Shown here: positions 6,794 to 25,333 of the stretch, piece by piece
Position numbering within the stretch: the first letter of the stretch is position 1
Layout: every line of letters begins with the position of its first letter
Assembly (NCBI GenBank): GCA_944384205.1
Contig: CALWSL010000021.1
Location: 1-51,432 of the forward strand
Direction: 5' to 3'
DNA: 51,432 nt
DNA from: an uncultured Acetatifactor sp.
GTDB lineage: Bacteria > Bacillota > Clostridia > Lachnospirales > Lachnospiraceae
The notes under the pieces: generated by a model
What the model was told of the DNA's origin: nothing
Database searches by the model: none
What the model saw: only the letters and a program-made list of their open reading frames with translations
Translations under genes and position numbers: made by a program

Positions 6794-6797
6794 TTTA

Positions 6798-8078: not shown

Positions 8079-8105
8079 AAACCTCACCTTTTCCTTACCC
8101 TGTAC

Positions 8106-9899: not shown

Positions 9900-9924
9900 A
9901 GGAAACCCTCCTTATAGGTCTATA

Positions 9925-9963: not shown

Positions 9964-10073
9964 AATTATGATTTTTTCATATTATTGGCTAATTCACTCA
10001 GAAATGCTATAATATTTCCAGTTGAGAAATCTGCGAGGTTTGCACCACACTATAGGGCAAACCTCGCTCACTC

Positions 10074-10382
10074 TTATCGAATCCTAACGCCTCTTTCATA
10101 ACTTCTGTCTTTGTCCGCATTCTGTAATTGCATCTCCGCCTTAATACAGGCATCCCGGAATCCATATTCAGAAAAATCTTTCCCATGCATCTCTTGCAGA
10201 ACAACTTTCGCCTTTTGCTCTGCTATATGCTCTACCTGATTATTATTGCCAAATCCGTCATAGTTTAAGATACCTTCTGCACCTCTAACCAACTCTGCAT
10301 ACTTTTGAATAATTCCTTCGCATTCGGCCTTAGCAATGTAGCCACAGAATGAAAATCCAGTCTGTTCAATCCTTTTCTCCAT
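10074..10382 (-). CDS. Small hypothetical protein
   Basis: The frame is 118 residues from a GTG at 10430, or 102 from the ATG at 10382 (MEKRIEQTGFSFCGYIAKAEC). Neither start has a strong ribosome binding site, so the start is uncertain. The protein is charged and soluble with no recognised motif. It lies between the defence-like operon and the divergent xis gene, where recombination-module accessory genes often sit. I do not know its function. Confidence 0.5.
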   Translation of the reverse strand: MEKRIEQTGFSFCGYIAKAECEGIIQKYAELVRGAEGILNYDGFGNNNQVEHIAEQKAKVVLQEMHGKDFSEYGFRDACIKAEMQLQNADKDRSYERGVRIR

Positions 10383-10605
10383 TCCTTTGTCTAAGAATTC
10401 GCTCTGTAAAATATTCGTTTGCGAATGCACAGAGTCTTAAAGAAAGTATATCATAGAATATTGCCTCGAACAAGTGTTTGTTTTGCAAAAACACTCAAAA
10501 TCTGGTCAAGTCTTATTCAATTTCAAACGGTTTCGTCCTTGTTACAATAGCCTTAGTTTTCGAAGACTAAGCAATTTATAGGGAAGGCGAGGTGATGCAA
10601 AAATT

Positions 10606-10839
10606 ATGAATCAAGTAACAGAGAATGAAACAGGAGTTAAAGCAGGTATTCCAATTTGGCGAAAGTATACGCTTTCTGTACAGGAAGCGTCGGAGTATTT
10701 TCATATTGGATACAAAAAACTTAGGAAGTTGATAGATGAGCATCCGGATGCGGATTTTATTCTGTGGAATGGCAGCAGACCACAGATAAAACGCAGGAAG
10801 TTCGAAGCGTATATAGATGAAAATCTCAGCGCCATCTAG
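10606..10839 (+). CDS. xis: Tn916-type excisionase of element A
   Basis: This 77-residue protein aligns from memory with Tn916 Xis (67 aa): IPIWRKYTLSVQEASEYFHIGYKKLRKLIDEHPDADFILWNG. The middle is a winged-helix/MerR-like DNA-binding fold. Xis bends the element ends and directs the integrase toward excision. It lies 98 bp before int on the same strand, as in Tn916. The N-terminus is about 10 residues longer than in Tn916. A GGCGAGGTGA site precedes the start. Confidence 0.85.
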   Translation: MNQVTENETGVKAGIPIWRKYTLSVQEASEYFHIGYKKLRKLIDEHPDADFILWNGSRPQIKRRKFEAYIDENLSAI

Positions 10840-10937
10840 GATAGCAGACAAACGATTTTCGGTAGAAATAGAGCCAGGGTTATGGTATATTAAATGTATC
10901 ATAGCTCGGCTCTTCAAGTTGGAAAGGAGCAAATGAT

Positions 10938-12155
10938 ATGTCATATGATATAAGACGCGACAATAAAGGTCGCAAGCTACTAAACGGTGAGAGCCAGAGA
11001 AAAGATGGAATGTATGAGTACAAGTACCTAGATAATGCGGGTAAGAGAAAGTCGTTATATAGTTGGAAACTGACGTCATCAGACCCATTACCTCCGGGAA
11101 AAAAGGCATGTGTTCCGTTAAGAGAAAAAGAAAAGCAGATTCAAAAGGATTTGTACGAAGGACTTCGCTATGAAGGTGGAGACATAACCGTCCTTGAACT
11201 GGTTAAGAAATATATTGACCAGAAAAGAGGCGTGCGTCATAACACCAAAGCCAATTATAATTTTGTAATTAATATTATTGCAAAAGAAGAATTCGGGCAG
11301 AAGCGGATTGATAAGGTGAAGTTATCCGATGCCAAGGCGTGGCTTATTAAGTTACAGGATGATGGAAGAGGATACTCTACCATTCATACAGTGCGTGGTG
11401 TAGTCAGACCGGCATTTCAGATGGCAGTAGATGATGATCTGATTCGGAAGAATCCATTTGAGTTTCAATTAAATACTGTGGTGGTAAATGACAGTGTTAC
11501 CAGAGAGGCTATCAGCAGGGCAGAAGAAAGGGCATTCCTTAAGTTTGTGAAAGAAGATAAGCATTTTGCCAAGTATTATGACGGGATGTTTATTCTGTTT
11601 AAAACAGGACTTCGAATCTCTGAATTTTGCGGGCTAACCATCAGCGATATTGATTTTAAGAATAATCGTATCAATGTGGACCATCAGTTACAGAGAACCA
11701 GAGACATGCGTTATATTATTGAGGATACCAAGACAACTTGTGGTGTACGCATGATTCCTATGACACCTGAAGTGAAGGAGTGTTTTGAGCGGATTGTTAG
11801 CAGTCGTCCGAAACCTAAGGTGGAGCCTATGATTGATGGCAGGTGTGGATTTTTATTTCTGGATAAAAATGAGATGCCGATGGTGGCTTTGCATTGGGAG
11901 AAATATTTTCAGCATGTTGTGGAAAAATACAATCGTATCTACAGGGTGCAGCTTCCAAAAATAACTCCCCATGTATGCAGACACACCTATTGCAGTAACA
12001 TGGCAAAGGCAGGAATGAATCCAAAGACCTTGCAGTACCTTATGGGGCACAGTGATATCGGAGTGACACTGAACACTTACACACACTTTAAGTTTGAAGA
12101 TGCACAGGCAGAAGTTTTACTTATGGATGAGAGTTGTCGTAAGAAATCCTCTTAA
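10938..12155 (+). CDS. int: Tn916-type tyrosine integrase of element A
   Basis: This 405-residue recombinase has the same length as Tn916 Int and integrates and excises element A. An N-terminal arm-binding domain (DNKGRKLLNGESQRKDGMYEYKY) comes first, then a core-binding SAM-like domain (~80-170) and a catalytic domain. Catalytic residues visible are Arg in LFKTGLRISEFCG, His-x-x-Arg in ITPHVCRHTYC, His in YLMGHSDI and Tyr in LNTYTHF. GGAAAGGAGC precedes the start. It lies about 260 bp inside the right att copy, as expected for an element-end integrase. Its 3' end overlaps the first of five TGTCGTAA-type repeats. Confidence 0.94.
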   Translation: MSYDIRRDNKGRKLLNGESQRKDGMYEYKYLDNAGKRKSLYSWKLTSSDPLPPGKKACVPLREKEKQIQKDLYEGLRYEGGDITVLELVKKYIDQKRGVRHNTKANYNFVINIIAKEEFGQKRIDKVKLSDAKAWLIKLQDDGRGYSTIHTVRGVVRPAFQMAVDDDLIRKNPFEFQLNTVVVNDSVTREAISRAEERAFLKFVKEDKHFAKYYDGMFILFKTGLRISEFCGLTISDIDFKNNRINVDHQLQRTRDMRYIIEDTKTTCGVRMIPMTPEVKECFERIVSSRPKPKVEPMIDGRCGFLFLDKNEMPMVALHWEKYFQHVVEKYNRIYRVQLPKITPHVCRHTYCSNMAKAGMNPKTLQYLMGHSDIGVTLNTYTHFKFEDAQAEVLLMDESCRKKSS

Positions 12156-12294
12156 GTGTCGTAAAGTTTTTAGTTTTGGTATGAGTGAGTAAATTGCCGT
12201 GGAGGCTGCTATGTCAGCCTCCCAGCAGTAGAAAGTCACTTCTTGAAAAAGGTGCTGTCGTAGAGAAAACTCCGTTACGACATTATTTACGACA
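12135..12294. repeat. Five TGTCGTAA-type octamers, candidate integrase arm sites
   Basis: TGTCGTAA occurs at 12135-12142 and 12157-12164, TGTCGTAG at 12256-12263, and the inverse TTACGACA at 12275-12282 and 12287-12294. They cluster between the integrase gene and the att core. Tn916-type Int uses its N-terminal domain to bind repeats inside the element ends, which this arrangement would fit. A hairpin GGAGGCTG-ctatgt-CAGCCTCC (about 12202-12223) lies among them. Confidence 0.55.
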
Positions 12295-12401
12295 AACAAG
12301 TGAAAAAATATGCCAAATTAAGCAAATTTATACCGAAATAAGGTTGAAGGTAAAAGTGCCAAAAACACAGTAAAATCAAGGATAAAAAGGAGTTTTAAGG
12401 A

Positions 12402-12432
12402 ATGATAAAAGTACTTTTCGTCTGCCACGGCA
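12402..12432 (+). other. Attachment-site copy 2 (junction of elements A and B)
   Basis: A strong ribosome site (AAGGAG...) and an ATG begin MIKVLFVCHGRM-stop, ending in the shared core TGCCACGGCA (12423-12432). This is the phosphatase start that the right end of element A would have supplied before element B entered at the same core. Confidence 0.78.
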
Positions 12433-12794
12433 GGATGTAATAAAAGTGTGGAATGGCTAGTAAAATTGGGCTTTTGAACATTTTGTGATTAAGTTTTTAC
12501 CTGTGATTTACTTATTCCGATTTTGTAACTAAGTGGGACATGTTTTGGGGTAAGACGGATTGTCAGTAGTGGCGGTCAGTCTTTTATATTTTAGAGTGCG
12601 TATAAGGGGATTCAAGTGGACATAGAGAGTTTAGAGATAAAAATATAGGGTACGGGAAGAAAAGAGAAAACATGGGGAAAATACAAAGCAACAGCAGGGA
12701 TTTTCAATTATTTTATTAGTGTTGTTTTCCTGATTTTTAACCGGAATTGAAATTACTGTTATAAAAATTTCTTTTATAACGGAGGTTCGGTTAC
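12433..12794. other. Non-coding left end of element B
   Basis: About 360 bp without a credible gene lie between the att core and the serine recombinase gene. The stretch is AT-rich. I see no strong inverted repeat. It probably contains the promoter of the recombinase and left-end integrase sites. Confidence 0.5.
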
Positions 12795-13589
12795 ATGGAA
12801 AACAACATTGTAAATGTATATGGCTACATAAGGGTGTCAACAGAAGGACAAGTCAAACAGGGATATTCCTTAGCGGAGCAACGAGCAGAAATTGAAAAGT
12901 ACTGTAGTTCCAAAAGTTACAACTTGATAGGGATATTCAAGGACGAAGGTATCAGCGGAGCGAAAGCCAACGAGGACGAAATGAGTATTGAGCGTGACGG
13001 TCTGCTTGATATGCTTGCTTCATTGAAAGAAAATAAAATTCAGTATATTGTTGTGCTGTCAACAAACCGTCTGTGGCGGTCAGACTTAGTAAAGGTTCTG
13101 TTACACAGAGAACTCAAAAAGAATAATGTGGATATTAAAGCCATTGACAGACCGAATTATTCTATCTACACGCAAAATCCCAATGAGATTTTTGTAAATG
13201 GTATGTTTGAACTTTTGGATGTGTATGAGCGATTAGAAATAGCATTGAAATTAAAACGTGGCAGATTGCAGAAAGCAAAGGGCGGTGGATATGCAGGCGG
13301 TGGTGCTCCATTTGGCTATGAGTGTCTGCGTGGTGGCAAGAAACTATATGTAAATGCAACAGAGGCAAAAGCGGTACGGAGAATATTTGAGATTAAACAG
13401 AGTTTTCCAAAAATGACTTTGAAAAATATAGCAGAGTTGATGAAAACAGAGGGTTACAAGGGGAGAAAAGGTGCTGACTTTAACGCTATGCTTGTAAAAC
13501 GTATTCTTGACAAGGAAAATTTTTATAGGGGATATTACAATTACGGCGGTATTGAGAGCGTGGGAGAGTATGAGCCGTTACTTTCATAG
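12795..13589 (+). CDS. Serine recombinase (resolvase/integrase type, short form)
   Basis: This 264-residue protein has an N-terminal resolvase domain (about 1-150) with the nucleophile Ser in YIRVSTEGQ and the conserved RLWRS stretch. A recombinase domain follows (YAGGGAPFGYECLRGGKKLYVN...). It lacks the zinc ribbon and long coiled coil of large serine integrases. The frame ends soon after the recombinase domain, as in many short ICE-encoded recombinases. ACGGAGG precedes the ATG. It could resolve dimers or invert DNA within element B; the tyrosine integrase at the far end is the likelier integrator. Confidence 0.85.
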   Translation: MENNIVNVYGYIRVSTEGQVKQGYSLAEQRAEIEKYCSSKSYNLIGIFKDEGISGAKANEDEMSIERDGLLDMLASLKENKIQYIVVLSTNRLWRSDLVKVLLHRELKKNNVDIKAIDRPNYSIYTQNPNEIFVNGMFELLDVYERLEIALKLKRGRLQKAKGGGYAGGGAPFGYECLRGGKKLYVNATEAKAVRRIFEIKQSFPKMTLKNIAELMKTEGYKGRKGADFNAMLVKRILDKENFYRGYYNYGGIESVGEYEPLLS

Positions 13590-13824
13590 AAAATAGTATG
13601 GGTCTTTATTTGTTATCATTTTGAAAAAATTGCAGTTGATAGATGATAAATTGCAGGAGCAGAAAAAATTTTGAACGGGCTGTTGATAGGAAATTGTACT
13701 GACAACAAAAGTAGAAGAATAGCAGTAGGCAGGAAAGAAACAGCATTCAGAAAGGCATGGATGGTACTACATAGTAGATAAAAATTTTGAAAAAAATGTG
13801 AGTAGGAAGGGACGTGCGAAAAAT

Positions 13825-14250
13825 ATGGAAACATTGGAAAAGGTTTGGGTTCTTTATGACGAGATGTTTTGTGACGAATTATCAATAAAGCTACTGTATC
13901 AGAATAAAGATTTAATTAACGAGTTCGTGGATGAAAACGAAAATCCCATTAGCAAAAAAGCAGTAGCAGACTGGATTATGGAGAATTATTACAATGACAG
14001 AAAGTTTATGGAGTATTGCGAAGAGGGTAAAGGTAGAATACCCGAAACAGCGGAGCAACTGTATCAATGTAACGAGGAATACAGAAAGAGCGTAGATGAG
14101 GAAAGATTATATCTGTTGTGTCTGATTGGCATAGCAGTTACAAAAGTTGCAAATATCTTTGGGGTAAGTCGGCAGACAGTATACAGCAGAATGAAAAACT
14201 TTGAGGAAAACAGATTGCAGGAATTTTTACAGGATGGCAGAGTGGCTTGA
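13825..14250 (+). CDS. Hypothetical HTH protein
   Basis: The ATG at 13825 gives 141 residues, preceded at some distance by AGGAAGGGA; the open frame extends to a GTG at 13798. The C-terminal part holds a convincing helix-turn-helix (VTKVANIFGVSRQTVYSRMKNF), similar to Fis/RpiR-type or sigma-like DNA-binding helices. The acidic N-terminal half (DELSIKLLYQNKDLINEFVDENEN) is unrecognised. It follows the serine recombinase and probably regulates element functions. Target unknown. Confidence 0.6.
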   Translation: METLEKVWVLYDEMFCDELSIKLLYQNKDLINEFVDENENPISKKAVADWIMENYYNDRKFMEYCEEGKGRIPETAEQLYQCNEEYRKSVDEERLYLLCLIGIAVTKVANIFGVSRQTVYSRMKNFEENRLQEFLQDGRVA

Positions 14251-14462
14251 CACTCTGTCATTTATAAATTTGCCAGTCAGTTTGAAAAATAGTGTGGGCG
14301 GTGTTCACCTGCTGTATTTACAATATATAATGGGTTCAGATGAATACACCCCGATTCTGAAATTGACTAAATAAAATATGAAAATACATTAGAAGTAATG
14401 ATTGACAGTAGAATACCACAGCGTTACAATCCCCAAACATTAAGAAGAAGGGAGGGTTTCGT

Positions 14463-14714
14463 ATGAGAGAGAATGCAGGACTTGTAAGGTGTGTGGACGG
14501 ACTGGAAATGGTGTCATTGCGTTTGGGAAAGTTAAATAATATGATAATGTCACTCTGTTTGGGTATGCAGCAGGAGCACATGGGGCAACAGGCGGTTGAT
14601 TGTGTGGAAAGTATCGGTTACTGTGTGAACGATATAAGAAGCATAGCGATTGACTGCCTGCAACAGATACAGAAATTACAAAACAATATGGACGAAAACA
14701 ATAAGCATGAGTGA
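14463..14714 (+). CDS. Small hypothetical protein (83 aa)
   Basis: A strong GGGAGGG site lies 6-8 bases before the ATG. The protein is amphipathic and helical (LEMVSLRLGKLNNMIMSLCLGMQQEHMGQQAVDC...) with three Cys and no known motif. Its stop lies in the arm of a shared terminator with the convergent repressor gene. Function unknown. Confidence 0.6.
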   Translation: MRENAGLVRCVDGLEMVSLRLGKLNNMIMSLCLGMQQEHMGQQAVDCVESIGYCVNDIRSIAIDCLQQIQKLQNNMDENNKHE

Positions 14715-14740
14715 TTAAGTTTACTCATGCTTTATTGTTT
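14703..14740. terminator. Bidirectional terminator between convergent genes
   Basis: AAGCATGAGT (14703-14712) and ACTCATGCTT (14723-14732) form a perfect 10-bp stem. It is flanked by a T-rich tail on the right and an AACAAT run on the left. Confidence 0.85.
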
Positions 14741-15017
14741 TTATGAGAGTTTGTAATGCTTGTATCTGTTCGGGTGTTAAGCCGTCAGTATCAAGTACAA
14801 CAGATGGTTTGTCACTTGATTTGCCAAGAAGATAATCAGTACTGCATTTATAGAGATAAGAGAGAGCAAGTAGATTTTCAGTACTGGGCGTTCGTTCTCC
14901 AGTTTCATAGCCAGAAACGATAGACGGAGAAATTTTTAGCTTTTTGGCAACATCAGCTTGGGAGAGGTTCTGTGACATTCTTAATTTTTTCAGCTTGGTC
15001 GATAAATCTTTAATCAT
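14721..15017 (-). CDS. XRE-family transcriptional repressor
   Basis: This 98-residue protein has an N-terminal Cro/C1-type HTH (KLKKLRMSQNLSQADVAKKLKISPSIVSGYETGERTPS, residues 8-45). A short C-terminal tail (LTPEQIQALQTLIKTIK) is typical of dimerising Xre repressors. AGGAGG lies 8 bases before the ATG. It diverges from the lipoprotein cluster, with about 150 bp between the starts, so it may control that cluster and itself. It probably acts as a maintenance or induction switch of element B. Confidence 0.9.
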   Translation of the reverse strand: MIKDLSTKLKKLRMSQNLSQADVAKKLKISPSIVSGYETGERTPSTENLLALSYLYKCSTDYLLGKSSDKPSVVLDTDGLTPEQIQALQTLIKTIKHE

Positions 15018-15165
15018 AGTGGTGTCCTCCTACGCTTATTGTATTGATATAAACAACACATTAGGAGTGATTAAACAACACTTTAAGAGTTGAAAAGGAA
15101 CGCGGATAGTATTATAATGGTACAAGTGGAAATATTTTATACCACGGGAAAAGGAGAAAAAACTT

Positions 15166-15924
15166 ATGAAAAGAAAACAACTAATAGCAGTCGGCATTTT
15201 AAGTATTTGTTTATTTGCTTCAGCGTGTGGAAGTAACACAGCAAGCACGGAACAGGGTACAGAGAATACTGTAATTGTGCAGGAAATAGATGTGCAGGAA
15301 ACAGATATGCAGGAGACGGAAACACAAGAAGAGGAGACGCAGGAAGTAGAAACACAAGAAACGGAAACACAAGAAACAGCGGACAATGTTGAAGAAACAG
15401 AAAATTATGATAATTATGAAGAACTTGTGTCTGTTCCAGTTGATGGCAGAGATGGAAGTAAAGAAAATCCATATCAAGTAGGAGATAAGATTTATTTACC
15501 CAAAATTCTTGTTGCTCATGAAAGTGGAGAAGATATTTATTCTTCAATTACGGTATCTATTGAAGAAGTGACTTCCGAATATGTGAAAATTGCGTTTGAG
15601 TTTGGCACGGATTTTCTGAGTTATCAAAGTTTTTCTAGTTGGTATGGTATAGGGGATATGGTAAAGGCACATTGTTGCAACGAAAACTTTGAAATAATTG
15701 GAAACACTTTTAACGCATTAAATCAACTTAACGATTCAGATGATATGATGAACTATGATTGGAGTGAAAGCGAAAAGGTTTTATATTATCAAGATTATGA
15801 GGCGTTTAAGGGGTGTACAGAGGATACTGCTTATATTCAATTGACATATAAGGTTAATCCTTATCTTTATGAGGAGTCAGAAGAGGCTTTACAGCGTGAC
15901 TATTATGTAAAGGTTACAGAGTAA
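15166..15924 (+). CDS. Lipoprotein with Gln/Glu/Thr-rich linker (1 of 3)
   Basis: This 252-residue protein has a lipoprotein signal peptide (KRKQ, a hydrophobic stretch, lipobox FASAC with Cys21). Residues about 30-80 form a low-complexity acidic linker of ETQE repeats, encoded by a short tandem repeat at about 15310-15380. The C-terminal ~170 residues (SKENPYQVGDKIYLPKILV...) are an unrecognised extracytoplasmic domain that looks beta-rich. AAAAGGAG precedes the start. It is the first of three consecutive lipoproteins and is divergent from the repressor. Surface exclusion or cell-envelope protection is conceivable; no function is known. Confidence 0.8.
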   Translation: MKRKQLIAVGILSICLFASACGSNTASTEQGTENTVIVQEIDVQETDMQETETQEEETQEVETQETETQETADNVEETENYDNYEELVSVPVDGRDGSKENPYQVGDKIYLPKILVAHESGEDIYSSITVSIEEVTSEYVKIAFEFGTDFLSYQSFSSWYGIGDMVKAHCCNENFEIIGNTFNALNQLNDSDDMMNYDWSESEKVLYYQDYEAFKGCTEDTAYIQLTYKVNPYLYEESEEALQRDYYVKVTE

Positions 15925-16023
15925 TTTGAGATTGTATTTTAAGAATAGGAAAACTGAACAGAATATTGGGATATGGGGGCATGGCTAAATGCCCTCACTC
16001 ATTATCAGAAAAGGTACGATAAA

Positions 16024-16971
16024 ATGAAAAAGAAAACAGCGATTTTAATATTAGGTTTGGCGGTTGCATTATCTGTAGGGGCTTGTGGAAATAAAGATAA
16101 TTCAATAGAGCCAACAGAGACAACGAAAGCTACTGCTGTTGTGCAGGAAACAGAGAAGCAAGATTATGAAACAGAGGAAGTAGAAACACAGGAAATTGAG
16201 ACACAGATAGAGGAAACAGAAGAGGTGAACTTGTGGGAACAGGTAGGAATAAAGGACGGAATAGGAACTGTTTACAATGGTGAGACAGTAGAACTTGTTC
16301 GTCACGGCGAAAATGCTTGTTGTATATATGCAGGATATGAGTTTGAAGAACCGACAGATTTTGAACAGTTTGCAAATGTTGATATCTGTTATCAAGATGT
16401 AGATATCAAATTACACGTTGAGGAAAGTCATAATTGCAAAATATTGTTGTCCGGCAACTATGAACTGGAAGAAATAGGAAGTTTTAATAATGAGTGTGGG
16501 AAATATTATAATTTAATGGTTAATGGCAGTTGTATTGCTTGGATTGATGTGGAAGGAGATAGCCCGGAAACAGCATTGGAGAATTGCAAAGTTAATGGTT
16601 TTACATTGTACCCTGTTGAAGGAATTACGTTAAATGGATATGAATTCAATGATTTGCAGATGTGTAATGTGGTAAATTATTTTGGAAATCCAAATAATGT
16701 GGTTTATTACGTTTATGATGAAGGATGCTATGATATTGATTATGGCAATGAACAAATTTTATATTCGTATAGGGAAGAAGTTGACTACATAAGCTACAGC
16801 GAAAAATATGGGAGCCTTGTTTCATATTGCAACGCTTCATCGTTAGATTTTTTTACAAAAGATGGTAAAAGTGTTGACACAATACAAATATCATTATTAC
16901 TTAGCAAGGAAGAAATTCAATGGCAAAAAGATTTGGAACAGCAAGACGTGACAATAGAAGAAAATGAATAG
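16024..16971 (+). CDS. Lipoprotein with acidic linker (2 of 3)
   Basis: This 315-residue protein starts at 16024; the longer frame from 15973 lacks a signal peptide context. It has a KKK-hydrophobic signal and lipobox LSVGAC with Cys21. An acidic ETQEIETQIEETEE linker much like that of the first lipoprotein follows. The mature domain contains several Cys (ENACCIYAGYEF, HNCKI, NECGKY) and is unrecognised. It is probably co-transcribed with its neighbours (about 100 bp after the first, 14 bp before the third). Confidence 0.8.
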   Translation: MKKKTAILILGLAVALSVGACGNKDNSIEPTETTKATAVVQETEKQDYETEEVETQEIETQIEETEEVNLWEQVGIKDGIGTVYNGETVELVRHGENACCIYAGYEFEEPTDFEQFANVDICYQDVDIKLHVEESHNCKILLSGNYELEEIGSFNNECGKYYNLMVNGSCIAWIDVEGDSPETALENCKVNGFTLYPVEGITLNGYEFNDLQMCNVVNYFGNPNNVVYYVYDEGCYDIDYGNEQILYSYREEVDYISYSEKYGSLVSYCNASSLDFFTKDGKSVDTIQISLLLSKEEIQWQKDLEQQDVTIEENE

Positions 16972-16985
16972 GAGAGCGACATATT

Positions 16986-17747
16986 ATGAAAAAATTGATG
17001 ATTGTAACAGTATTGATTTTTGCACTTAGTACAATAACAGCGTGTGAAAAAACAGAAAATAATCAACAGGAGTATTCGCAGAACGTTGAAACTATTAATG
17101 ATTTGCCCTCACAGGATGAAATAGACGGAGCGTTTTACATGGTGGAGGAAGCTGAACGGCAAGATAATTATGATGGTGCGGATTATACGAAAATAGAAAT
17201 TCCAGTAAAGGTGTCATTGACTGCCAGTGAGACTACTCCAATAAATTTATGCGTACCAGAGGAATACTATGTTGATACATTACAAGTACTGGACGGAAAC
17301 GCAATAATAAAATTACAAGCGTATGCGAACGGTATTGCAGAGCCATATTGGATATATCTGAAGGTCGGCATTCGTAAAACAGAGCAATTAGATAATGGAG
17401 CGGACAGTTCGGCAGAGGAAATAGCAAATTCACAGTATGATTTGAAAAATAATGAGTTCAAGGGGTATTCGATTGAAAGAACATTAACAGGGGATGGTGA
17501 TTCTTATAAGTTTATTTATGAAAATGAGGAAGAGGGGTGGTATATAGATGGTGACGGAATTAATTGCAGACCAATGCGACACGCAATGAAATATTTTGAG
17601 CAAAGTGGATATACCATAGATTTGGATTTAATATCATTCAATGACAGTAGGGAAGAGGGTTCCAGTAAGTTTTCATATTCCTATATTTTGAACAATGAAG
17701 ATATTGAGTATGACATTTTGGATTCGATATTCATTGAAGTACAGTAG
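16986..17747 (+). CDS. Lipoprotein (3 of 3)
   Basis: This 253-residue protein has a signal peptide and lipobox STITAC (Cys20). The mature part (IPVKVSLTASETTPINLCVPEEYYVDTLQVLDGN...) reads as beta-strand rich. It lacks the long repeat linker of the other two but shares the overall plan. It follows the second lipoprotein by 14 bp with GGAGAGCGAC before the start, so the genes are in one operon. Function unknown. Confidence 0.8.
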   Translation: MKKLMIVTVLIFALSTITACEKTENNQQEYSQNVETINDLPSQDEIDGAFYMVEEAERQDNYDGADYTKIEIPVKVSLTASETTPINLCVPEEYYVDTLQVLDGNAIIKLQAYANGIAEPYWIYLKVGIRKTEQLDNGADSSAEEIANSQYDLKNNEFKGYSIERTLTGDGDSYKFIYENEEEGWYIDGDGINCRPMRHAMKYFEQSGYTIDLDLISFNDSREEGSSKFSYSYILNNEDIEYDILDSIFIEVQ

Positions 17748-17896
17748 TTTCCTATTTGAAGCCATTGCAACATAATGTTGTTGTAGTGACTTCTTTTGTA
17801 GTTGCTGTCCTTTTAATATACATCATTCTTAGATAAGATATATGTTTTTTGTAAGAAGAAAACATCATACAAGCAATATTTAAGGAGGCACATATT

Positions 17897-18088
17897 ATGG
17901 GAATATCATTCAAGAGTGCAAGAAAAGACAACATCATAGGCATGGTTATGATTTACCCCGACGGACATCCACGAACTGTACTTATGGCAGAGTTGCCAAT
18001 AGACGGAGACTGGCGTGCAGATGTAGACTTCTTTGATGAAGTTGAGAACGCATACAAAAAGCGTTTACGCAGAGCATTAAGAAGATAA
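17897..18088 (+). CDS. Small hypothetical protein (63 aa)
   Basis: AAGGAGG lies 9 bases before the ATG, a strong site. The protein (MGISFKSARKDNIIGMVMIY..., ending KKRLRRALRR) has a basic C-terminus that might bind nucleic acid. A terminator follows at 18109. I do not recognise it. Confidence 0.65.
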   Translation: MGISFKSARKDNIIGMVMIYPDGHPRTVLMAELPIDGDWRADVDFFDEVENAYKKRLRRALRR

Positions 18089-18108
18089 AACAATATTATC
18101 AAAGTAAG

Positions 18109-18138
18109 AGCATTGCCAGTTGGTAGTGCTTTTATTTT
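18109..18138 (+). terminator. Rho-independent terminator
   Basis: AGCATTGCC and GGTAGTGCT pair over 9 bp with two G-U pairs around an AGTT loop, followed by TTTATTTTT. Confidence 0.8.
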
Positions 18139-18243
18139 TGCAAAGCTACATAAAATTGCTACATTTTTAGGGACTAGTGAGAAGGCAGTTAGGAGCGTAT
18201 TTTTCAATTTTTATTGAAAATTTATATCCTTTGAGAGTAAACT

Positions 18244-18379
18244 TATAAAAATGAAAATGTGAATATTTTGAAAAAAATGTATTAGAAATTTTTGTGGAAA
18301 GATTGAAAAATTGTACTAAAAAATTATGTGGGAAATTTAAAAAAGTGTATTAGAAAATTTTTGCAAAGAGTTGAAAAGG
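18244..18379. repeat. 34-bp iteron-like tandem repeats in a 640-bp gene-free AT-rich region
   Basis: Three units start at 18278, 18312 and 18346 with exact 34-bp spacing (TGTATTAGAAA.., TGTACTAAAAA.., TGTATTAGAAAA..). A weaker unit at 18244 keeps the phase. Each has an ATTTTTGTGGAAAG..TTGAAAA-like second half. Between 18139 and 18774 no gene is visible; the rest is AT-rich. Iterons in such a position suggest a replication origin or a binding array for an element-encoded protein. Confidence 0.6.
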
Positions 18380-18774
18380 TATAAAATGTCAGGATTTTAA
18401 GGTTTTTTAGAAAAAAATTAAGGTTTATGTGTCAGAAAATAAGGGGATTGAAAAGTTTGACTATGTGCTTTTTCCTCAAAAAATGTGAATAAAAAGTTGA
18501 AAATAAATTGATGCAGAAAATGACAGTTAAAGGGTAAAAATAGTAAAAAAATATAAGGAACACATTTAGAAAAAATGTTTTTGTTTGTATACGATTAGCA
18601 ATGAATGCGGTAATTTTATATTACTCTACAAACTCCACAATTACACAATAAATTTTGAGATAAAACCCCTTGTATTCCGTCAATAGCCCTGTTGAGCTGT
18701 CAGCGTTAATATGTATTTGTAAGGAAGTAGTAATAAAACAAATAAAAAATGCAAAAGCACGGAGGTAAAGAATT

Positions 18775-19269
18775 ATGTGTACATTTTTAGTGAACGGGAA
18801 CTACTTAGGTCAGCGTCTGATTGGTTATGACTGCTACGATTCCAAGTCAAAGGGCTTTATCGGCATGAGCGAAAAACAGATTGCGGATAAATTGAAAAGA
18901 GGCGAGCGAGTTTACGGTTTTACACTTGTTACAGAAAATGAAGAGGATAAACTGGTTCTTGATGTTGACGGCTTCAACATGACGAACTTACAGTTAAAAA
19001 GTGGCGTGAATAATCTGTCATGGCTGAATGAAAATTCTGACTGTTGTGATATGAATATTGGCTTGATTGTAGTAGCTGTATTTGTGGAAAATGGTAAAAG
19101 AGTTTATGAGACGGTCAATGCCCGTCATGCCCGTGTCACTTATGAAGAAAGCAAGTTGCGTATGCTGATGGAAATAGGCGTATCGGTTGGAGGGGTAAAG
19201 TTAGAAAAGAATAAACTGGTCTTATGTGAGGGTGTTGAACTCTTTGGCGAAGTGAAAGAAGGTGCATAA
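18775..19269 (+). CDS. Hypothetical ICE-type protein (164 aa)
   Basis: ACGGAGG lies 9 bases before the ATG. The protein (MCTFLVNGNYLGQRLIGYDCYDS...) is soluble, with no membrane segment or known catalytic motif. The central VLDVDGFNMTNLQLKSG region may be a beta-rich fold. It is the first gene after the iteron array and is closed by its own terminator. I recognise this style of protein only as common in clostridial integrative elements; function unknown. Confidence 0.7.
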   Translation: MCTFLVNGNYLGQRLIGYDCYDSKSKGFIGMSEKQIADKLKRGERVYGFTLVTENEEDKLVLDVDGFNMTNLQLKSGVNNLSWLNENSDCCDMNIGLIVVAVFVENGKRVYETVNARHARVTYEESKLRMLMEIGVSVGGVKLEKNKLVLCEGVELFGEVKEGA

Positions 19270-19289
19270 GGAATAAGCAATAATAGCGG

Positions 19290-19330
19290 ATAAGAGTTTG
19301 TTGGAGCAGTCTGACAAACTCTTATTTTTG
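19290..19330 (+). terminator. Rho-independent terminator
   Basis: ATAAGAGTTTGT (19290-19301) and ACAAACTCTTAT (19314-19325) form a perfect 12-bp stem followed by TTTTTG. Confidence 0.9.
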
Positions 19331-19508
19331 CATTATCTGCATTTATTAGAAAAGGTGTTGCTGTTAAATATGTTAATGGGAGTGAAAATGTTTCTGTGTT
19401 GCTTTTGTAAACTGTTGTTGTTGGCATTCTGCCATAGTAACCAAAATAAAAGATGATTTTTGGTTGCACAGATAGTATAATGGGGTTCAAAGGATGGTGT
19501 AAAATGTC

Positions 19509-20204
19509 ATGGCAGAAACAAAACGATACATTTTAGATAAAGACAACGGCTTTAATGTAATAGTAAATTTGTATATTATACGATATTTATATTCACACAT
19601 GAAGAAAGCAGCCTGTTTTGAGATAGTGGATAGCGAGAGAAAAAAATCAGTGGATTTTTATAATAATGTGGTTGGAATTACAAGACAGCGTATATCAAGA
19701 ATGTTGCAGGGTGCAAGATTTGAAATGTCTGCCGAAGATAGGAAACGTCTAAGCGGTATGTTTGGAATATCAGAAAACTATTTTGAACGGGATGGAATTT
19801 GTTTTCAGCTTGGCAGACTGGAGAAAACGGACTGGGAATGTTATTTCAATGACCGCTACGATGCAGGATATAACGTATATGATTATGACAGAATAAAAAA
19901 ACGGCATATTTCCAATGTTGAGGAAACTCTAAAGGTACTTTGTTCCAAAGGGGCATTGGAACGAGATTATGAAACGAGTACACCAATTTATTATGTCTAT
20001 TATTATTTTAAAAACGGAGCAACCTATACAGAAGAAAGTAATCTTACAAAATTTTTGAAACTGCTGTCGCAGTTGTCATTTTCAGATTGGGAAGAAATTG
20101 AGGATAACGTAGACAGTTTGGAGCATTACCAAGGTTTATTAGAAAAACACAGCCATTATGTAAAGGTGGTAGCAGAATATAAGCGGTTAAAAGAGAAAAA
20201 ATAG
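19509..20204 (+). CDS. HTH-containing hypothetical protein
   Basis: This 231-residue protein has a phage-repressor-like HTH at about residues 50-90 (NVVGITRQRISRMLQGARFEMSAEDRKRLSGMFGISENYF). A helical C-terminal region follows (SNLTKFLKLLSQLSFSDWEEIEDNVDSLEHYQGLLEKH). It may be a copy-control or maintenance regulator of element B. A weak AAAGGATGG site precedes the ATG. The gene is closed by its own terminator and is followed by the structured leader. Confidence 0.65.
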   Translation: MAETKRYILDKDNGFNVIVNLYIIRYLYSHMKKAACFEIVDSERKKSVDFYNNVVGITRQRISRMLQGARFEMSAEDRKRLSGMFGISENYFERDGICFQLGRLEKTDWECYFNDRYDAGYNVYDYDRIKKRHISNVEETLKVLCSKGALERDYETSTPIYYVYYYFKNGATYTEESNLTKFLKLLSQLSFSDWEEIEDNVDSLEHYQGLLEKHSHYVKVVAEYKRLKEKK

Positions 20205-20219
20205 GCAGTCAGACACGAG

Positions 20220-20255
20220 AGAGCGTATACATTTGGAGTATATGCTCTTTTTTTA
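20220..20255 (+). terminator. Rho-independent terminator
   Basis: AGAGCGTATAC (20220-20230) and GTATATGCTCT (20238-20248) form an 11-bp stem followed by seven T. Confidence 0.88.
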
Positions 20256-20449
20256 ATGGTGGTACATATAAAAACAATAGCATAACAAATAGAAGCGAAT
20301 GGAGTTGCAAATAACGTATAAAATGCAGATAAATGTATTATTACAAATAAAACAAGAGGCATATTTTAATGGGTATTGTCACGTTATAATAAGCACATAA
20401 GGTTGAAATAGAGAGGAGATGAAAAAGACTACATAGGGTAGAAGTATAT

Positions 20450-20558
20450 CGTACCTTGACAAAAAGTAGGCTGTACATATCTGCTGGTACGGAGCAGGTA
20501 TGTATGGACGGCTCATATTGAAATTATCAGCGACAACGGATGAACCCCGACCGTACCA
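20450..20558 (+). ncRNA. Structured leader with potential pseudoknot
   Basis: TACATATCTGCT (20474-20485) and AGCAGGTATGTA (20493-20504) form a 12-bp stem with one wobble, leaving the loop GGTACGG (20486-20492). The loop is perfectly complementary to CCGTACC at 20551-20557 and matches CGTACC at 20450-20455 over six bases. A very short frame (AUG-AAA-AAG-ACU-ACA-UAG) with a GAGAGGAG site begins at about 20420. It lies in the gene-free 20256-20665, upstream of the 320-aa protein. It could be a copy-number or translation switch, or a DNA-level site. Confidence 0.5.
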
Positions 20559-20665
20559 AGGGGGAAGTCTGTCAATACAACAAACCTTATGATGCAGAAT
20601 CATAAATTAACTATAAATATAACAGCTGTTAATCATGCAAGTGACAGTTGAGAAAGGGAAAAATC

Positions 20666-21625
20666 ATGGAAGAAGTAAAACACAATGCTCTTTTAGAGAG
20701 CGAAACGCTAGGAGCAATAGATGAAGCTGTTAATATTCTTGGCACACAAACAGGGGTGTTAAGCAATGCCTTGAAGCTGATGGATGGGAAGTATGGCGGT
20801 GCATTTTATGTGCGGTACATCTGTGACACAGGCAGAGGCTGTGGATGGTTGCAACTGATAATCGAATACCCAACTGGAACGGTGCAGACACAACTGCTGT
20901 GTAAAAATGTCTGCAAGATTAGCAGTTATGAAGAGGATGGCTTGGGAGAGGTCGAAGGCATTTCTTATCAACATAAGCCTAATGGAGAAATGGCAGTTTA
21001 TAAACCACATATCACGGATAGTATGCGTAGTGGATTTTATGACAGTATGCGAGTGTATGAGCGTCCTAATATGCCTATTCCGATGAGGGTGCTGTGGCAA
21101 CGTATTGTGGAGAATTACGCAGAAATACCAGTCTTGGAGTTGACAGTCAAAAGCTCTTTGCAGGATGTTTATAATGCATTGATAGAGTATGGAGAAGATT
21201 TCATTCAGCGTGACATTTCAAGACTCGGAAATGGATATATATTGCTGACGAAAAGTGAAGTAGAGGAGACTGTTTCCAAACTGGGGTATTCTTTGCAGGA
21301 AGTGCGTACAGAATTTGCACTTCGTGGTTTATGGGTAACCGACAAAAATACTGGTGGTTATCAAAAAACTAGAAAAGTTGACAAGAAAAACTGTAGGTTC
21401 TATGCGTTGAAAACAGAATTGCCAAGTGATAAAGGTGCAGAGTGCAAAGCAGTTGACAATGTTGCGTATGCAGAGACGATTCCACATACAAAAGAAAATG
21501 CAGAAATTGAAAAGTTAAAGTCTGAACTTGCTAAAATGAAAAAGGAAAGGGACGAAATGACACAAATTGTGTGTGAGCGAGTACCTGATTTAACACAGCA
21601 GGAAATAATGAAAAAACTACTTTAA
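20666..21625 (+). CDS. Hypothetical protein with C-terminal coiled coil
   Basis: This protein is 319 residues from the ATG at 20666, preceded by GAGAAAGGGA. I see no known catalytic motif. Residues about 170-230 (SSLQDVYNALIEYGEDFIQRDISRLGNGYILLTKSEVEETVSKLG) resemble a winged-helix pair. The last ~50 residues (KENAEIEKLKSELAKMKKERDEMTQIV) form a coiled coil. Its place behind a structured leader and before xis-int recalls replication or regulatory genes of small elements, but no Rep motif is visible. Function unknown. Confidence 0.65.
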   Translation: MEEVKHNALLESETLGAIDEAVNILGTQTGVLSNALKLMDGKYGGAFYVRYICDTGRGCGWLQLIIEYPTGTVQTQLLCKNVCKISSYEEDGLGEVEGISYQHKPNGEMAVYKPHITDSMRSGFYDSMRVYERPNMPIPMRVLWQRIVENYAEIPVLELTVKSSLQDVYNALIEYGEDFIQRDISRLGNGYILLTKSEVEETVSKLGYSLQEVRTEFALRGLWVTDKNTGGYQKTRKVDKKNCRFYALKTELPSDKGAECKAVDNVAYAETIPHTKENAEIEKLKSELAKMKKERDEMTQIVCERVPDLTQQEIMKKLL

Positions 21626-21698
21626 AATGAAAATACCATAAAACATAGTAACCCAACAGAACGAACCAGTGATATTGAGATATTATTGGAGGTTCAAA

Positions 21699-21905
21699 AT
21701 GAATCAAGAAATTAATGTGCCGCTATGGCACAAATACACGCTTACGATTACGGAAGCCAGTGAGTACTTCAATATTGGCGAAAAGAAACTGCGTCAGATG
21801 GTGCAGGAAAATAGCAGTGCTGATTTCCTGCTTAACAACGGTGTGAAAGTACTAATCAAGCGAGAAAAATTTGAGCAGTTTCTTGATGAAACGTGCAGTA
21901 TTTGA
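21699..21905 (+). CDS. xis: Tn916-type excisionase of element B
   Basis: This 68-residue protein has the Tn916 Xis length and pattern: VPLWHKYTLTITEASEYFNIGEKKLRQMVQENSSADFLLNNG. The ATG at 21699 is chosen because GGAGG lies 8 bases upstream; the longer frame from 21669 lacks such a site. It should direct excision by the downstream integrase, about 100 bp away. It is clearly related to the excisionase of element A but diverged. Confidence 0.88.
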   Translation: MNQEINVPLWHKYTLTITEASEYFNIGEKKLRQMVQENSSADFLLNNGVKVLIKREKFEQFLDETCSI

Positions 21906-22008
21906 AATTCAAAAATTACCTTTAAAAAACATTTGCAATTCCCTTTAGGTGGCGTTACAATCCCCCACCCAAAGGGAATAAAAAAATAAATTGCAGGAGG
22001 ACAAGGCT

Positions 22009-23289
22009 ATGGCAGAGAGTTTCAAAAGAAAAGACAGCAGAGGACGCATTTTGAGGGAGAACGAGCAACAGAGAGCAGACGGCAGATATATGTATGCGTA
22101 CAAAGACCCGACAACAGGAAAGAAAATGTTTATTTACAGTTGGAAGTTAGAGCGCAACGATAAGACACCGGCAGGGAAAAAGATTGACCTGTCATTGAGA
22201 GAAAAAGAGAAGCTAATAGAAAAGGATTTGAGAGACGGCATTTCCTATAAGGCAGGCGGTATAACGGTGCTTGAACTGGTGGAGCGGTATATCAGCCTAA
22301 AAACAAAGGTACGTCCGACAACGAGGGCAGGATATAGGACAGTAGTAAATGTGTTAAGAGCAGACCCATTTGGGCAAAAGAATATTTCTACAATAAAGAC
22401 ATCCGAAGCGAAAATGTGGTTGATTAGTTTGCAGGACGGCGGACGCAGTTATTCATCCATACATAGTATTCGTGGAGTAGTAAGACCTGCTTTTGCAATG
22501 GCGGTGGAGGATGATTTGCTTCGTAAAAATCCATTCGATTTTGAATTGGCAAAGGTACTGATAGATGATTCTGTCAAGCGTGATGCACTGACACCAAAGC
22601 AGGAGCGGGATTTTTTGAAATTCATCAAAGAAGATGAATATTTTAGTCAGTTTTATGACGGGATATTTATTCTGTTAAAAACAGGCTTGCGTATCAGCGA
22701 GTTGTGCGGTTTGACAATTCGTGATATAGATTTGCAGGAGCGAACAATAAATGTGAATAAGCAGTTACAATATACTGGTGGAAAGAAAGCCTATATTGAG
22801 CAGACAAAAACAATAGCAGGAACAAGGGTGCTTCCAATGAGTGACGAGGTGTACGAAGTATTTAAGCGTGTCATTTCAAGCAGGAAGAAGCCCAAGGTGG
22901 AACAGATGATAGATGGTGTCAGCGGTTTTCTGTTCTTGGATGATAAGGGAAAACCAATGTTGGCATACCAGTGGGAAAAGAAGTTTCAACACTCTGTTGA
23001 GAAATATAATAAAACCTATAAGGTGGAATTACCCAAGATTACGCCCCACATATGCAGGCATACTTATTGTACAAATATGGCAAAATCGGGAATAGCAGTT
23101 AAGACTTTGCAATATCTCATGGGGCACGCAGATATAGCAACTACAATGAATGTATACACACATCTCAAATTAGAAGATGCCAAGGACGAATTGGAACAAC
23201 TGAAGGTAAGGGAACAGCTTAAAAAGGAGATGGCATTGGTGGATATGGAGTATGCCAAGAAAGAATTAAAGAGAGTAAGTGTAGTTTAG
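22009..23289 (+). CDS. int: Tn916-type tyrosine integrase of element B
   Basis: This protein is 426 residues from the ATG at 22009 (GCAGGAGG upstream). It aligns along its length with the element A integrase and Tn916 Int: N-terminal arm-binding domain (KDSRGRILRENEQQRADGRYMY), core-binding domain and catalytic domain. Catalytic residues are Arg in LLKTGLRISELCG, His-x-x-Arg in ITPHICRHTYC, His in YLMGHADI and Tyr in MNVYTHL. A C-terminal extension of about 20 residues (EQLKKEMALVDMEYAKKELKRV) is absent from the A enzyme. It lies unusually far (1.58 kb) from the att core because a cargo block sits between. Confidence 0.94.
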   Translation: MAESFKRKDSRGRILRENEQQRADGRYMYAYKDPTTGKKMFIYSWKLERNDKTPAGKKIDLSLREKEKLIEKDLRDGISYKAGGITVLELVERYISLKTKVRPTTRAGYRTVVNVLRADPFGQKNISTIKTSEAKMWLISLQDGGRSYSSIHSIRGVVRPAFAMAVEDDLLRKNPFDFELAKVLIDDSVKRDALTPKQERDFLKFIKEDEYFSQFYDGIFILLKTGLRISELCGLTIRDIDLQERTINVNKQLQYTGGKKAYIEQTKTIAGTRVLPMSDEVYEVFKRVISSRKKPKVEQMIDGVSGFLFLDDKGKPMLAYQWEKKFQHSVEKYNKTYKVELPKITPHICRHTYCTNMAKSGIAVKTLQYLMGHADIATTMNVYTHLKLEDAKDELEQLKVREQLKKEMALVDMEYAKKELKRVSVV

Positions 23290-23294
23290 AAGAA

Positions 23295-23328
23295 GTCAGT
23301 AGAAAAAGGGGCAGAGGTACAAAAGTGG
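23295..23328 (+). repeat. Direct repeat left of the cargo block
   Basis: GTCAGTAGAAAAAGGGGCAG followed by AGGTACAAAAGTGG matches 24678-24708 with few differences. It starts 6 bp after the integrase stop and contains the motif AGAGGTACAA (23313-23322), a candidate integrase arm site. Confidence 0.75.
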
Positions 23329-23415
23329 GAGATAAAAGAGGCAAAAGTACACACTAGATGAATAATCGATTTTCATCCCCCAGTTCATCTTTTTGAAATT
23401 TATTCGAACATACGG

Positions 23416-23475
23416 TTGACAAATAATGGAAAAGGAAATATAATGTTGTTAGCACTCAAAAGACGCGAGTGCTAA
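23416..23475 (+). promoter_or_regulatory. Consensus sigma-A promoter with CIRCE (HrcA) operator
   Basis: TTGACA (23416-23421), a 17-bp spacer and TATAAT (23439-23444) are perfect consensus. Four bases later lies TTAGCACTC (23449-23457), 9 bp and GAGTGCTAA (23467-23475), a perfect CIRCE element. CIRCE is the operator of the heat-shock repressor HrcA and normally precedes groES-groEL or hrcA-dnaK. Here the downstream gene is not a chaperone. Confidence 0.95.
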
Positions 23476-23576
23476 CAACTGCTTTCCGTTGAGTAATTAA
23501 AAGAGTATTACCGGGTACCAGAAATTTAATTATTATCAACGTTCATTTATAGATAAAAAATTTGGAGGATAAAGAA

Positions 23577-23645
23577 ATGTTGAATCAAACAGAATTAATT
23601 ATCAGAAAAAAATGGAGGTATTATATTGACGAAATTGATGGTTAA
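23577..23645 (+). CDS. 22-codon leader peptide upstream of the cargo gene
   Basis: TTGGAGG lies 8 bases before an ATG that opens MLNQTELIIRKKWRYYIDEI followed by DG and a stop. Its end overlaps the TTG start of the next gene in another frame, and that gene's ribosome binding site lies inside it. The layout suggests translational coupling or is the remnant of a gene that once followed the heat-shock promoter. Its sequence is not GroES. Confidence 0.45.
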   Translation: MLNQTELIIRKKWRYYIDEIDG

Positions 23646-24561
23646 AGAAGAAAAACTGAATAAGGTACTATTTACAGAATATTTTGGAGTGAATAGGGAA
23701 CAGAAAGATTTAGAATTTGTAAATATTTATGTCAATGCAGATAAAAAATTTTTTCTAGACCCTGCTAAGTTACTTGATTTTGATGATGCAATGAGCATTC
23801 AGATGAGTAATGTTATTATAAAATATTTTGAAAAGCTCTTACAATTCATAATAAAACAAGATGAATTTAATAGTTTGAAGTTATTAAGTGAGTTGAGAGA
23901 ACCTAAAGAAACTCATTTAGGATATGCTACAAATGGGTATACTGGTAATGCAGTAGGTGGAATAAAGGGAGAGAAGATTTATAGAAAATTGTCTGAGAGT
24001 AATGCTGTAAAGACAGGACTTCTAAAAGATTTGGAAGAAAGTGCATTATTGGTAGAGGGAATTAATAGGGATATTATTTCGGACATGACGGTTATGATAA
24101 CGAAGAAGTATTTGATAGAATTTACACAGGCTCAATGTAAAAAATATCAAGTACCAATGAGTAAAGCTAAAGTAGGTAAGATATGGGATGAAAAGCAAGA
24201 ATATTGGGTGGAAATAGAAACAGAGTTACCTATTTATGATAATAAACCGATGATATTGGTTCCAAAGAAAATTGTAACAGATAAATTGATGTTAGATAGT
24301 CAAGACTTTTATCGTAATGAGTTATTGAGCTTTGTACAAGATGAGTTAATGCGTGCTGATAGAAGTTTGATAATCGTGTTGAAAAATGGAAAGAGACAAT
24401 GTGCAGTAACTAAAAAGCAATTGAAATCTGATAAGCAATATAGATACTCTAAAGAGTTAATATATAGGATTGTCCAAAAGCATCCCGAGTTATTGCAAAG
24501 GTATCGACATCGAAAAAAGAATATATCGGAAGATATAGATGAAAAGCTAGAAGAAAATTAG
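23626..24561 (+). CDS. Unknown accessory protein under heat-shock (CIRCE) control
   Basis: This 311-residue soluble protein starts at TTG, 7 bases after GGAGG; an ATG at 23638 is the alternative. The N-terminal part (LEFVNIYVNADKKFFLDPAKLLDFDD) is followed by ETHLGYATNGYTGNAVGG, then LLKDLEESALLVEGINRDIISDMTVMITKKYLIEFTQAQC, and a basic C-terminus. I have a sense of similar motif strings in proteins of accessory islands but cannot name a family. Expression should rise on heat or protein-folding stress. The gene is more AT-rich than its neighbours and lies in a 1.35-kb block between direct repeats, so it joined element B late. A strong terminator follows. Confidence 0.75.
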   Translation: MTKLMVKEEKLNKVLFTEYFGVNREQKDLEFVNIYVNADKKFFLDPAKLLDFDDAMSIQMSNVIIKYFEKLLQFIIKQDEFNSLKLLSELREPKETHLGYATNGYTGNAVGGIKGEKIYRKLSESNAVKTGLLKDLEESALLVEGINRDIISDMTVMITKKYLIEFTQAQCKKYQVPMSKAKVGKIWDEKQEYWVEIETELPIYDNKPMILVPKKIVTDKLMLDSQDFYRNELLSFVQDELMRADRSLIIVLKNGKRQCAVTKKQLKSDKQYRYSKELIYRIVQKHPELLQRYRHRKKNISEDIDEKLEEN

Positions 24562-24569
24562 AACATATG

Positions 24570-24618
24570 GGTAGTATGCTATTGGATACCCGGGATAGCA
24601 TACTGCCTTTTTATTTTG
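24570..24618 (+). terminator. Rho-independent terminator of the cargo gene
   Basis: GGTAGTATGCTAT (24570-24582) and ATAGCATACTGCC (24595-24607) pair over 13 bp, followed by TTTTTATTTT. Confidence 0.92.
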
Positions 24619-24677
24619 AAATAGGACGTAATAAGTGATAGTAAGTAAAAATGGTTATCAAGTAGTGTTTAAAAGCA

Positions 24678-24734
24678 GTCGGTAGAAAAAGGGCAGAGGT
24701 ACAAGTGGTAAATTTTACTTCCATTTGTACCTCT
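24678..24734. repeat. Direct repeat right of the cargo block, plus palindrome
   Basis: GTCGGTAGAAAAAGGGCAG and AGGTACAAGTGG (24678-24708) repeat 23295-23328. AGAGGTACAAGTGG (24695-24708) also pairs with CCATTTGTACCTCT (24721-24734). AGAGGTACAA is therefore present three times near the right end of element B and is a candidate integrase arm site. Confidence 0.7.
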
Positions 24735-24844
24735 TTTACCTACCAAGATAGGGTAAAATATGATAAGATATACCAAGAAAGGGTTCTAAGGGAAAATGCT
24801 TGGAACACTAGGAAATACAAGGAAAATCGAGGTTATACTAAGAT

Positions 24845-25333
24845 ATGCAAAGAAAAATAAAAGTCCTCATGGTTTGCCACGGCAATATCTGCCGTTCTCC
24901 CATGGCGGAATTTATCCTAAAGGACATGACCCAAAAACGAGGCATTGCAGACTGCTTCTATATCGCTTCGGCTGCCACCAGCACGGAGGAGATTTGGAAC
25001 GGTGTCGGCAATCCGGTGTACCCACCCGCCCGGGAAGAACTTGCCAAACACGGCATTAGTTGTGCAGGGAAACGAGCGGTGCAGGTATGCAAAGCAGATT
25101 ACGAAAAATACGATTATCTTATCTGTATGGACGGGAATAATCTGCGGAATCTTAGCCGTATTATCGGAGCGGACAGGGACGGCAAGGTAAGCCTTTTATT
25201 AGATTATGCCGGACGGAATGGACAGGCAATCGCAGATCCCTGGTATACAGGAAACTTTACGGCAACATACAAGGATGTGTCAGATGGCTGTGAAGGGTTT
25301 CTGCAATATTTAAAGGAAAACGGTAAACTGTAG
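24845..25333 (+). CDS. Low-molecular-weight protein tyrosine phosphatase (att target gene)
   Basis: This 162-residue cytoplasmic phosphatase is of the arsenate reductase/LMW-PTP fold. The catalytic loop is CHGNICRS (Cys nucleophile, Arg) at residues 11-18, and the general acid Asp is in ADPWYTGNF. In Firmicutes this family includes arginine- and tyrosine-phosphatases. Its first ~14 codons (MQRKIKVLMVCHG) lie left of or at the att core TGCCACGGCA (24875-24884), so the start codon and promoter come from element B. Two displaced alternative starts lie at 3199 and 12402. The ribosome site before this ATG is weak (CGAGGT), so expression may differ from the uninserted gene. Confidence 0.92.
   Translation: MQRKIKVLMVCHGNICRSPMAEFILKDMTQKRGIADCFYIASAATSTEEIWNGVGNPVYPPAREELAKHGISCAGKRAVQVCKADYEKYDYLICMDGNNLRNLSRIIGADRDGKVSLLLDYAGRNGQAIADPWYTGNFTATYKDVSDGCEGFLQYLKENGKL
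24873..24884. other. Attachment-site copy 3, right end of element B
   Basis: TTTGCCACGGCA lies at the codons of the phosphatase P-loop and matches 3218-3229 exactly and 12423-12432 over its last 10 bases. It marks the right boundary of the accessory region; housekeeping genes follow without interruption. Confidence 0.8.

Follow-up and report, generated by a model that had tools for sequence, protein, structure and literature searches.

The window (the whole stretch of DNA that was analyzed, 51,432 nucleotides) contains an exact CIRCE, the operator consensus of HrcA, placed directly behind a perfect sigma-70-type promoter and ahead of a mobile gene whose 311-residue product matches a candidate defence family. 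We favor, with somewhat better than even confidence, the reading that the gene, cargo of a small integrative element and member of a defence-associated family, is repressed by HrcA and induced by stress. Judging from the layout of the control region, the gene probably stays silent until stress sets in.

The CIRCE promoter and its cassette

The control region and the transcription unit behind it comprise the following features:

23416..23444, + strand: sigma-70-type promoter, TTGACA-N17-TATAAT, 12 of 12 consensus bases
23449..23475, no strand assigned: exact CIRCE, HrcA operator consensus (predicted operator), found by pattern match
23577..23645, + strand: leader ORF of 22 codons, overlapping the start of the main ORF, with its own GGAGG at 23564-23568
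23626..24561, + strand: cargo protein of 311 aa, TTG start, short form of the PDC-M36A / phrog_27295 family
24569..24608, + strand: hairpin resembling a terminator, with a T-rich tail behind it (folding energy -22.8 kcal/mol, z -4.98)

In the promoter, TTGACA (23416-23421) and TATAAT (23439-23444) are separated by 17 nt. The CIRCE pattern, TTAGCACTC-N9-GAGTGCTAA, was matched exactly at 23449-23475, with agreement at all 18 fixed bases. It starts 4 nt past the -10 hexamer, the main ORF begins approximately 150 bp downstream, and the complementary arms of the inverted repeat reach 13 bp (23445-23479). The perfect promoter and operator claimed in the original prediction were confirmed at these positions, as were the 22-codon leader and the 311-residue protein behind them. 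A chance palindrome was considered and appears unlikely: shuffled versions of the window gave a mean of 0.01 matches with up to three mismatches allowed, approximately 5e-5 exact sites are expected per genome assuming equal base frequencies, and counts of a reversed control pattern were low.

The ribosome-binding site of the main ORF (GGAGG, 23614-23618) is located inside the leader ORF. The leader peptide was also considered as the remnant of a known gene, and no match to it was found in plasmids. The hairpin at 24569-24608 was absent from the output of a consensus terminator scan; besides its promoter, the cassette probably includes a terminator. Promoter, leader, gene and hairpin together span approximately 1.4 kb between the integrase gene and the right end of the element (element B, described below), an interval with only one gene of at least 60 aa on the + strand. 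The G+C content of the cassette is 30.5%, vs. 36.6% for the remainder of element B.

Element B and the tandem array

The sequence TGCCACGGCA occurs in exactly five copies in the window, three of which (3220, 12423 and 24875) lie in the 5' ends of phosphatase genes. From these we infer two tandem elements, A (approximately 3220-12423) and B (approximately 12423-24875, 12.5 kb). The landmarks of element B are:

12423..12432, + strand: left attachment core, in a truncated phosphatase-gene start
21669..21905, + strand: excisionase (phrog_16129, 1.2e-20)
21991..23289, + strand: Tn916-type tyrosine integrase (PF02920 and PF00589)
23277..23310, + strand: imperfect direct repeat on either side of the cassette, left copy (integrase tail plus right-end arm)
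24660..24693, + strand: cassette-flanking repeat, right copy, located at the element's native right end
24845..25333, + strand: low-molecular-weight phosphatase gene, the insertion target (PF01451, 3e-31)
24875..24884, + strand: right attachment core, in the 5' end of the phosphatase gene

The gene had been placed in element B, close to its right end, and this was borne out, the cassette lying between the integrase gene and that end. The description of the element as a Tn916 relative was sustained in part: the integrase is of Tn916 type and is accompanied by an excisionase, yet no relaxase or conjugation gene was found in the nine element B ORFs scanned with Pfam or at 13798-14250 with NCBIfam, the ORFs at 14463-14714 and 17897-18088 being left out of the scans. 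Since the integrase is of Tn916 type and the ORFs scanned hold no conjugation gene, small integrative element is the better description. The element had no close DNA match in phages, its first 4 kb had none in plasmids, and no relative of the integrase was found in viral contigs.

The two copies of the cassette-flanking repeat share 82% identity over 34 nt (91% over 33 nt in a second comparison). Four sister elements lack the cargo: in G241 (the best genus match after the host) and in G174, G748 and G754 (which also rank among the best matches), approximately 175-330 bp separate the integrase match from the phosphatase match downstream, as against 1556 bp in the window; the G241 integrase is interrupted and the G748 integrase match is partial. 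The right repeat copy is more similar to the right end of G241 than the left copy is, so that the cassette probably came with the end of a related element. In a further genome (G611, L232:14157-16071) an SLFN_AlbA_2 gene takes the place of the integrase ahead of the same right end, and no integrase was found in the stretch read; such an arrangement suggests that the right-end region acts as a cargo slot. The cassette may have entered this slot, between integrase and right end, as a self-contained transcription unit.

The tandem array also contains AbiE-type and GajA-like pieces. The core at 3220 is flanked on either side by an AbiEi-type gene (1781-2395; 3974-4567) with a partial AbiEii ORF (2501-2821; 4564-4962), and a fragment of a GajA-like N-terminal ATPase (2837-3190) ends just ahead of that core. 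Within element A, two minus-strand genes at 6798-9899 may be a further pair of defence type: one is an ORF whose Swt1-like HEPN match is sub-threshold, the other an AAA_14 ATPase that matches PDC-S01 weakly.

CIRCE sites elsewhere and the origin of the promoter

Five exact CIRCE and one with a single mismatch were found in the host genome, where the reversed control pattern gave one match with up to three mismatches allowed. The four exact sites other than that of the window are located at hrcA, hsp20, htpG and groES-groEL; a second hsp20 has the site with one mismatch. The host encodes HrcA (PF01628, 4.6e-68), its gene being itself behind a CIRCE, and Pfam confirmed HrcA, both Hsp20, Hsp90, Cpn10 and Cpn60. 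One of the hsp20 sites (L002, C8 of the host genome) sits between hsp20 and a divergent ORF that was read as TerD-like.

Exact CIRCE were present in 135 of 138 genomes of the genus, the reversed control giving zero matches in the genome table. All 43 of the sites examined in other genus genomes adjoin chaperone genes (30/30 taken one per genome from the first 30 genomes listed, and 13/13 representing every exact site in G241, G236 and G651); they are a minority of all the genus CIRCE sites counted. Among the sites examined, that of the window is the sole one without an adjacent chaperone gene. Many of the chaperone labels derive from blastp to host proteins; Pfam confirmation covers the host proteins, one DnaJ and two viral Hsp20, with the GrpE labels and the GroES-GroEL labels of viral contig L072 outside it.

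Within the family of the cargo gene, CIRCE is not a shared feature. No CIRCE was found upstream of any of 36 distinct relatives, the best match within 500 bp having at least 6 of 18 mismatches; of these relatives, L008, L131 and L139 offer an upstream stretch shorter than 500 bp, and for the fragments L009 and L010 the start was extrapolated. Since none of the 36 has a CIRCE, the link looks lineage-specific, and there is therefore no sign among them of a conserved use of CIRCE control or of a second copy of the cassette. That homologues might belong to chaperone operons was also considered, and no such operon was seen in the seven wider regions read (six short forms, L249-L254, and one long form, L257).

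In order to trace the promoter, the cassette was compared with 48 chaperone CIRCE loci (5 of the host and 43 of the genus), and the longest alignment, around the CIRCE, spanned 46 nt. Against 101 genus genomes, cassette DNA gave only short matches outside the host genome (at most 44 nt). A recent copy of those chaperone promoters is not supported by alignments of this length, and the captured host chaperone promoter of the original prediction was not recognised, the similarity to the 48 loci stopping within 46 nt.

Viral contigs contain comparable layouts. In L042, TTGACA-N17-TATAAT, 4 nt, CIRCE and hsp20 follow one another as in the window; in L076 the -10 is one base off and the spacer is 16 nt, ahead of a CIRCE and an hsp20 beside a terminase gene; L072 was read as carrying a CIRCE before groES-groEL, plus a recombinase. 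Chaperone genes behind this layout in viral contigs make a mobile chaperone gene a possible donor of the promoter. Overall, 114 exact CIRCE were counted in 104 viral stretches, 34 of them near ORFs related to host chaperones and 80 not, and a promoter scoring 11 or 12 was found near 5 of the 114, vs. 9 of approximately 1,040 random places. Some of the non-chaperone CIRCE of the viral contigs (L020-L123) occur in close pairs or triples, e.g. in L044, L055 and L108.

These data bear on whether stress control is a selected property of the cassette. The operator could be real and HrcA-responsive, and yet have arrived with a promoter from a chaperone gene, perhaps on another mobile element, the gene of the window being an incidental passenger and its stress control unselected. 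The lack of CIRCE in all 36 relatives, the chaperone genes behind the same layout in L042 and L076, and the low G+C of the cassette, which fits a foreign origin, are in line with such a passenger. On the other hand, the promoter, the operator and both ribosome-binding sites are intact, the ORF has the full length of its family, and no donor promoter extending beyond 46 nt was found among the 48 chaperone loci, and we regard this explanation as rather unlikely.

The cargo family, a proposed circuit and known systems

The 311-residue protein had been described as belonging to an unknown family. While it gave zero Pfam or NCBIfam matches up to E 1, this is not wholly so: it matches PADLOC PDC-M36A (E 1.2e-31) over profile positions 8-233 of 457, that is, approximately 225 residues of the N-terminal half, as well as phrog_27295 (7.9e-61), a PHROG family of unknown function. 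PADLOC PDC entries are candidate defence families, and the "M" in the name presumably stands for more than one gene. The C-terminal half of the profile is missing from the protein, which does not span the full-length model, and no PDC-M36 partner gene was found between the integrase and the right end, so that PDC-M36 as defined is incomplete here.

Among 72,556 plasmid records, tblastn detected relatives in 36, with identities under 60% throughout and some on small cryptic plasmids with few genes; 50,697 phage records gave no relative despite the phrog_27295 match, and viral contigs gave none either. A profile built from seven sequences had matches in 14 of 392 genomes of the order, 5 of 138 of the genus and 11 of 391 of the class, each count including the host. 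The scan of genome contigs added two loci, both partial, one of them at 75% identity in a Lachnospiraceae MAG. Six relatives fetched from the 36 plasmid records span 283-345 residues, and 311 aa is therefore an ordinary short-form length. Long forms (L007, L008, L144 and L257; 440-545 residues) have an extra C-terminal half, in which PD-(D/E)XK-like motifs may be present in L007, L008 and L144, as read by eye. A second PDC-M36A model spans the C-terminal half of L144, and Pfam gave no match for L007 or L144. Structure prediction was unsuccessful (AlphaFold2 on the single sequence of the 311-residue protein reached a pLDDT of 31), no solved structure matched the seven-row profile at E 1, and three weak matches of solved structures to L144 (E 0.17 or worse) were taken as chance.

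Several relatives lie among defence-type genes. In three of the six short-form regions read (L249, L252 and L254) the next ORF upstream, 227-604 bp off, encodes an AAA_21 ATPase that AbiLi fits best among the PADLOC models; no such partner was seen in the other three, by eye in L251 and L253, where a small part of the ORFs was scanned, while L250 has an ImmA/IrrE-type peptidase upstream. Among the long forms, L257 stands behind a DinG-like helicase, a PIN_8 protein and a NucC-like protein, and that of G666 comes after an S8 protease matching IetS. By association only, these neighbours support a putative defence role of the cargo family. Two relatives from different genomes (the fragment L009, and L249) are near genes read as thiamine-synthesis genes, possibly a shared insertion spot.

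In the favored reading, the HrcA-repressed cargo gene would be controlled as follows. The CIRCE would cover the expected transcription start, and in an unstressed cell host HrcA, kept active by free GroEL, would bind it and block the promoter. When unfolded protein fills GroE, HrcA would lose activity, the promoter would fire, and the PDC-M36A-type protein of 311 aa, most likely an anti-phage or anti-element factor, would be made. The element would thereby carry a defence-type gene gated by the protein-folding state of its host. A more specific version, in which the HrcA-GroE circuit acts as an infection sensor, phage or foreign protein occupying GroE so that HrcA releases the promoter and the defence protein appears only in overloaded cells, seems to us quite unlikely; release by phage infection had been offered as a possibility in the original prediction.

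The cargo might instead serve the element, as a stress-induced factor for its maintenance, for competition with other elements or for transfer. The frequency of relatives on plasmids (36 of 72,556 records), including small cryptic ones, would fit, but several relatives belong to defence-type gene clusters, and the integrase and excisionase are separate genes that are not behind the CIRCE; we hold this account to be improbable. That the inverted repeat is no HrcA operator at all is highly improbable: a hairpin with 13-bp arms at the 5' end of the transcript could stabilise the RNA, and the 80 of 114 viral exact matches away from recognised chaperone ORFs indicate that the pattern by itself does not prove function, but 18 of 18 fixed bases match where approximately 5e-5 sites are expected per genome, the site is directly behind a perfect promoter, and the other genus sites examined all adjoin chaperone genes.

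If HrcA control of the cassette were confirmed, the sequence that controls chaperones in this genus would do the same for a mobile gene from a defence-associated family. An element would then have a simple, testable means of detecting folding stress and of keeping down what a harmful protein costs. Other stress-gated cargo could also be sought by looking on mobile DNA for non-chaperone genes preceded by a CIRCE.

According to published work, HrcA needs available GroELS in order to repress, and the appearance of non-native proteins lifts the repression (PMC3842655). In Campylobacter phage carrier cultures hrcA expression was lower, the authors discussing derepression via chaperone titration. 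HrcA targets outside the chaperone set are already known: in L. plantarum two predicted regulon members, one an integrase/recombinase and the other a gene without known function, changed in hrcA mutants, and prophage genes are among the predicted CtsR or HrcA targets (PMC3842655), while the HrcA regulon of Waddlia includes an accessory part (PMC4989314). In titles and abstract openings of the open-licence literature, covering HrcA or CIRCE together with integrative or mobile elements, prophage, phage defence or phage infection, and also PDC-M36, no description of the present arrangement was found.

Compared with the Tn916 family, element B shares an integrase with a Tn916-type DNA-binding domain and an excisionase, but has a fixed target in a phosphatase gene, a length of approximately 12.5 kb and no conjugation gene in the ORFs scanned. 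The cargo protein is like PDC-M36A / phrog_27295 in its N-terminal half, and differs in having neither the C-terminal half nor a partner gene in the cassette; the CIRCE promoter of the window was seen in none of 36 relatives. In AbiLi- and IetS-associated defence clusters, relatives adjoin ATPase or protease genes of those types, whereas the gene of the window stands alone. Phage-borne chaperones (L042 and L076) have the same layout of promoter and CIRCE on mobile DNA, the gene there being hsp20. With the class I heat-shock regulon of HrcA and CIRCE, the cassette shares an exact operator between promoter and gene and a host HrcA, yet here the site precedes a mobile non-chaperone gene instead of groE, dnaK, hsp20 or htpG.
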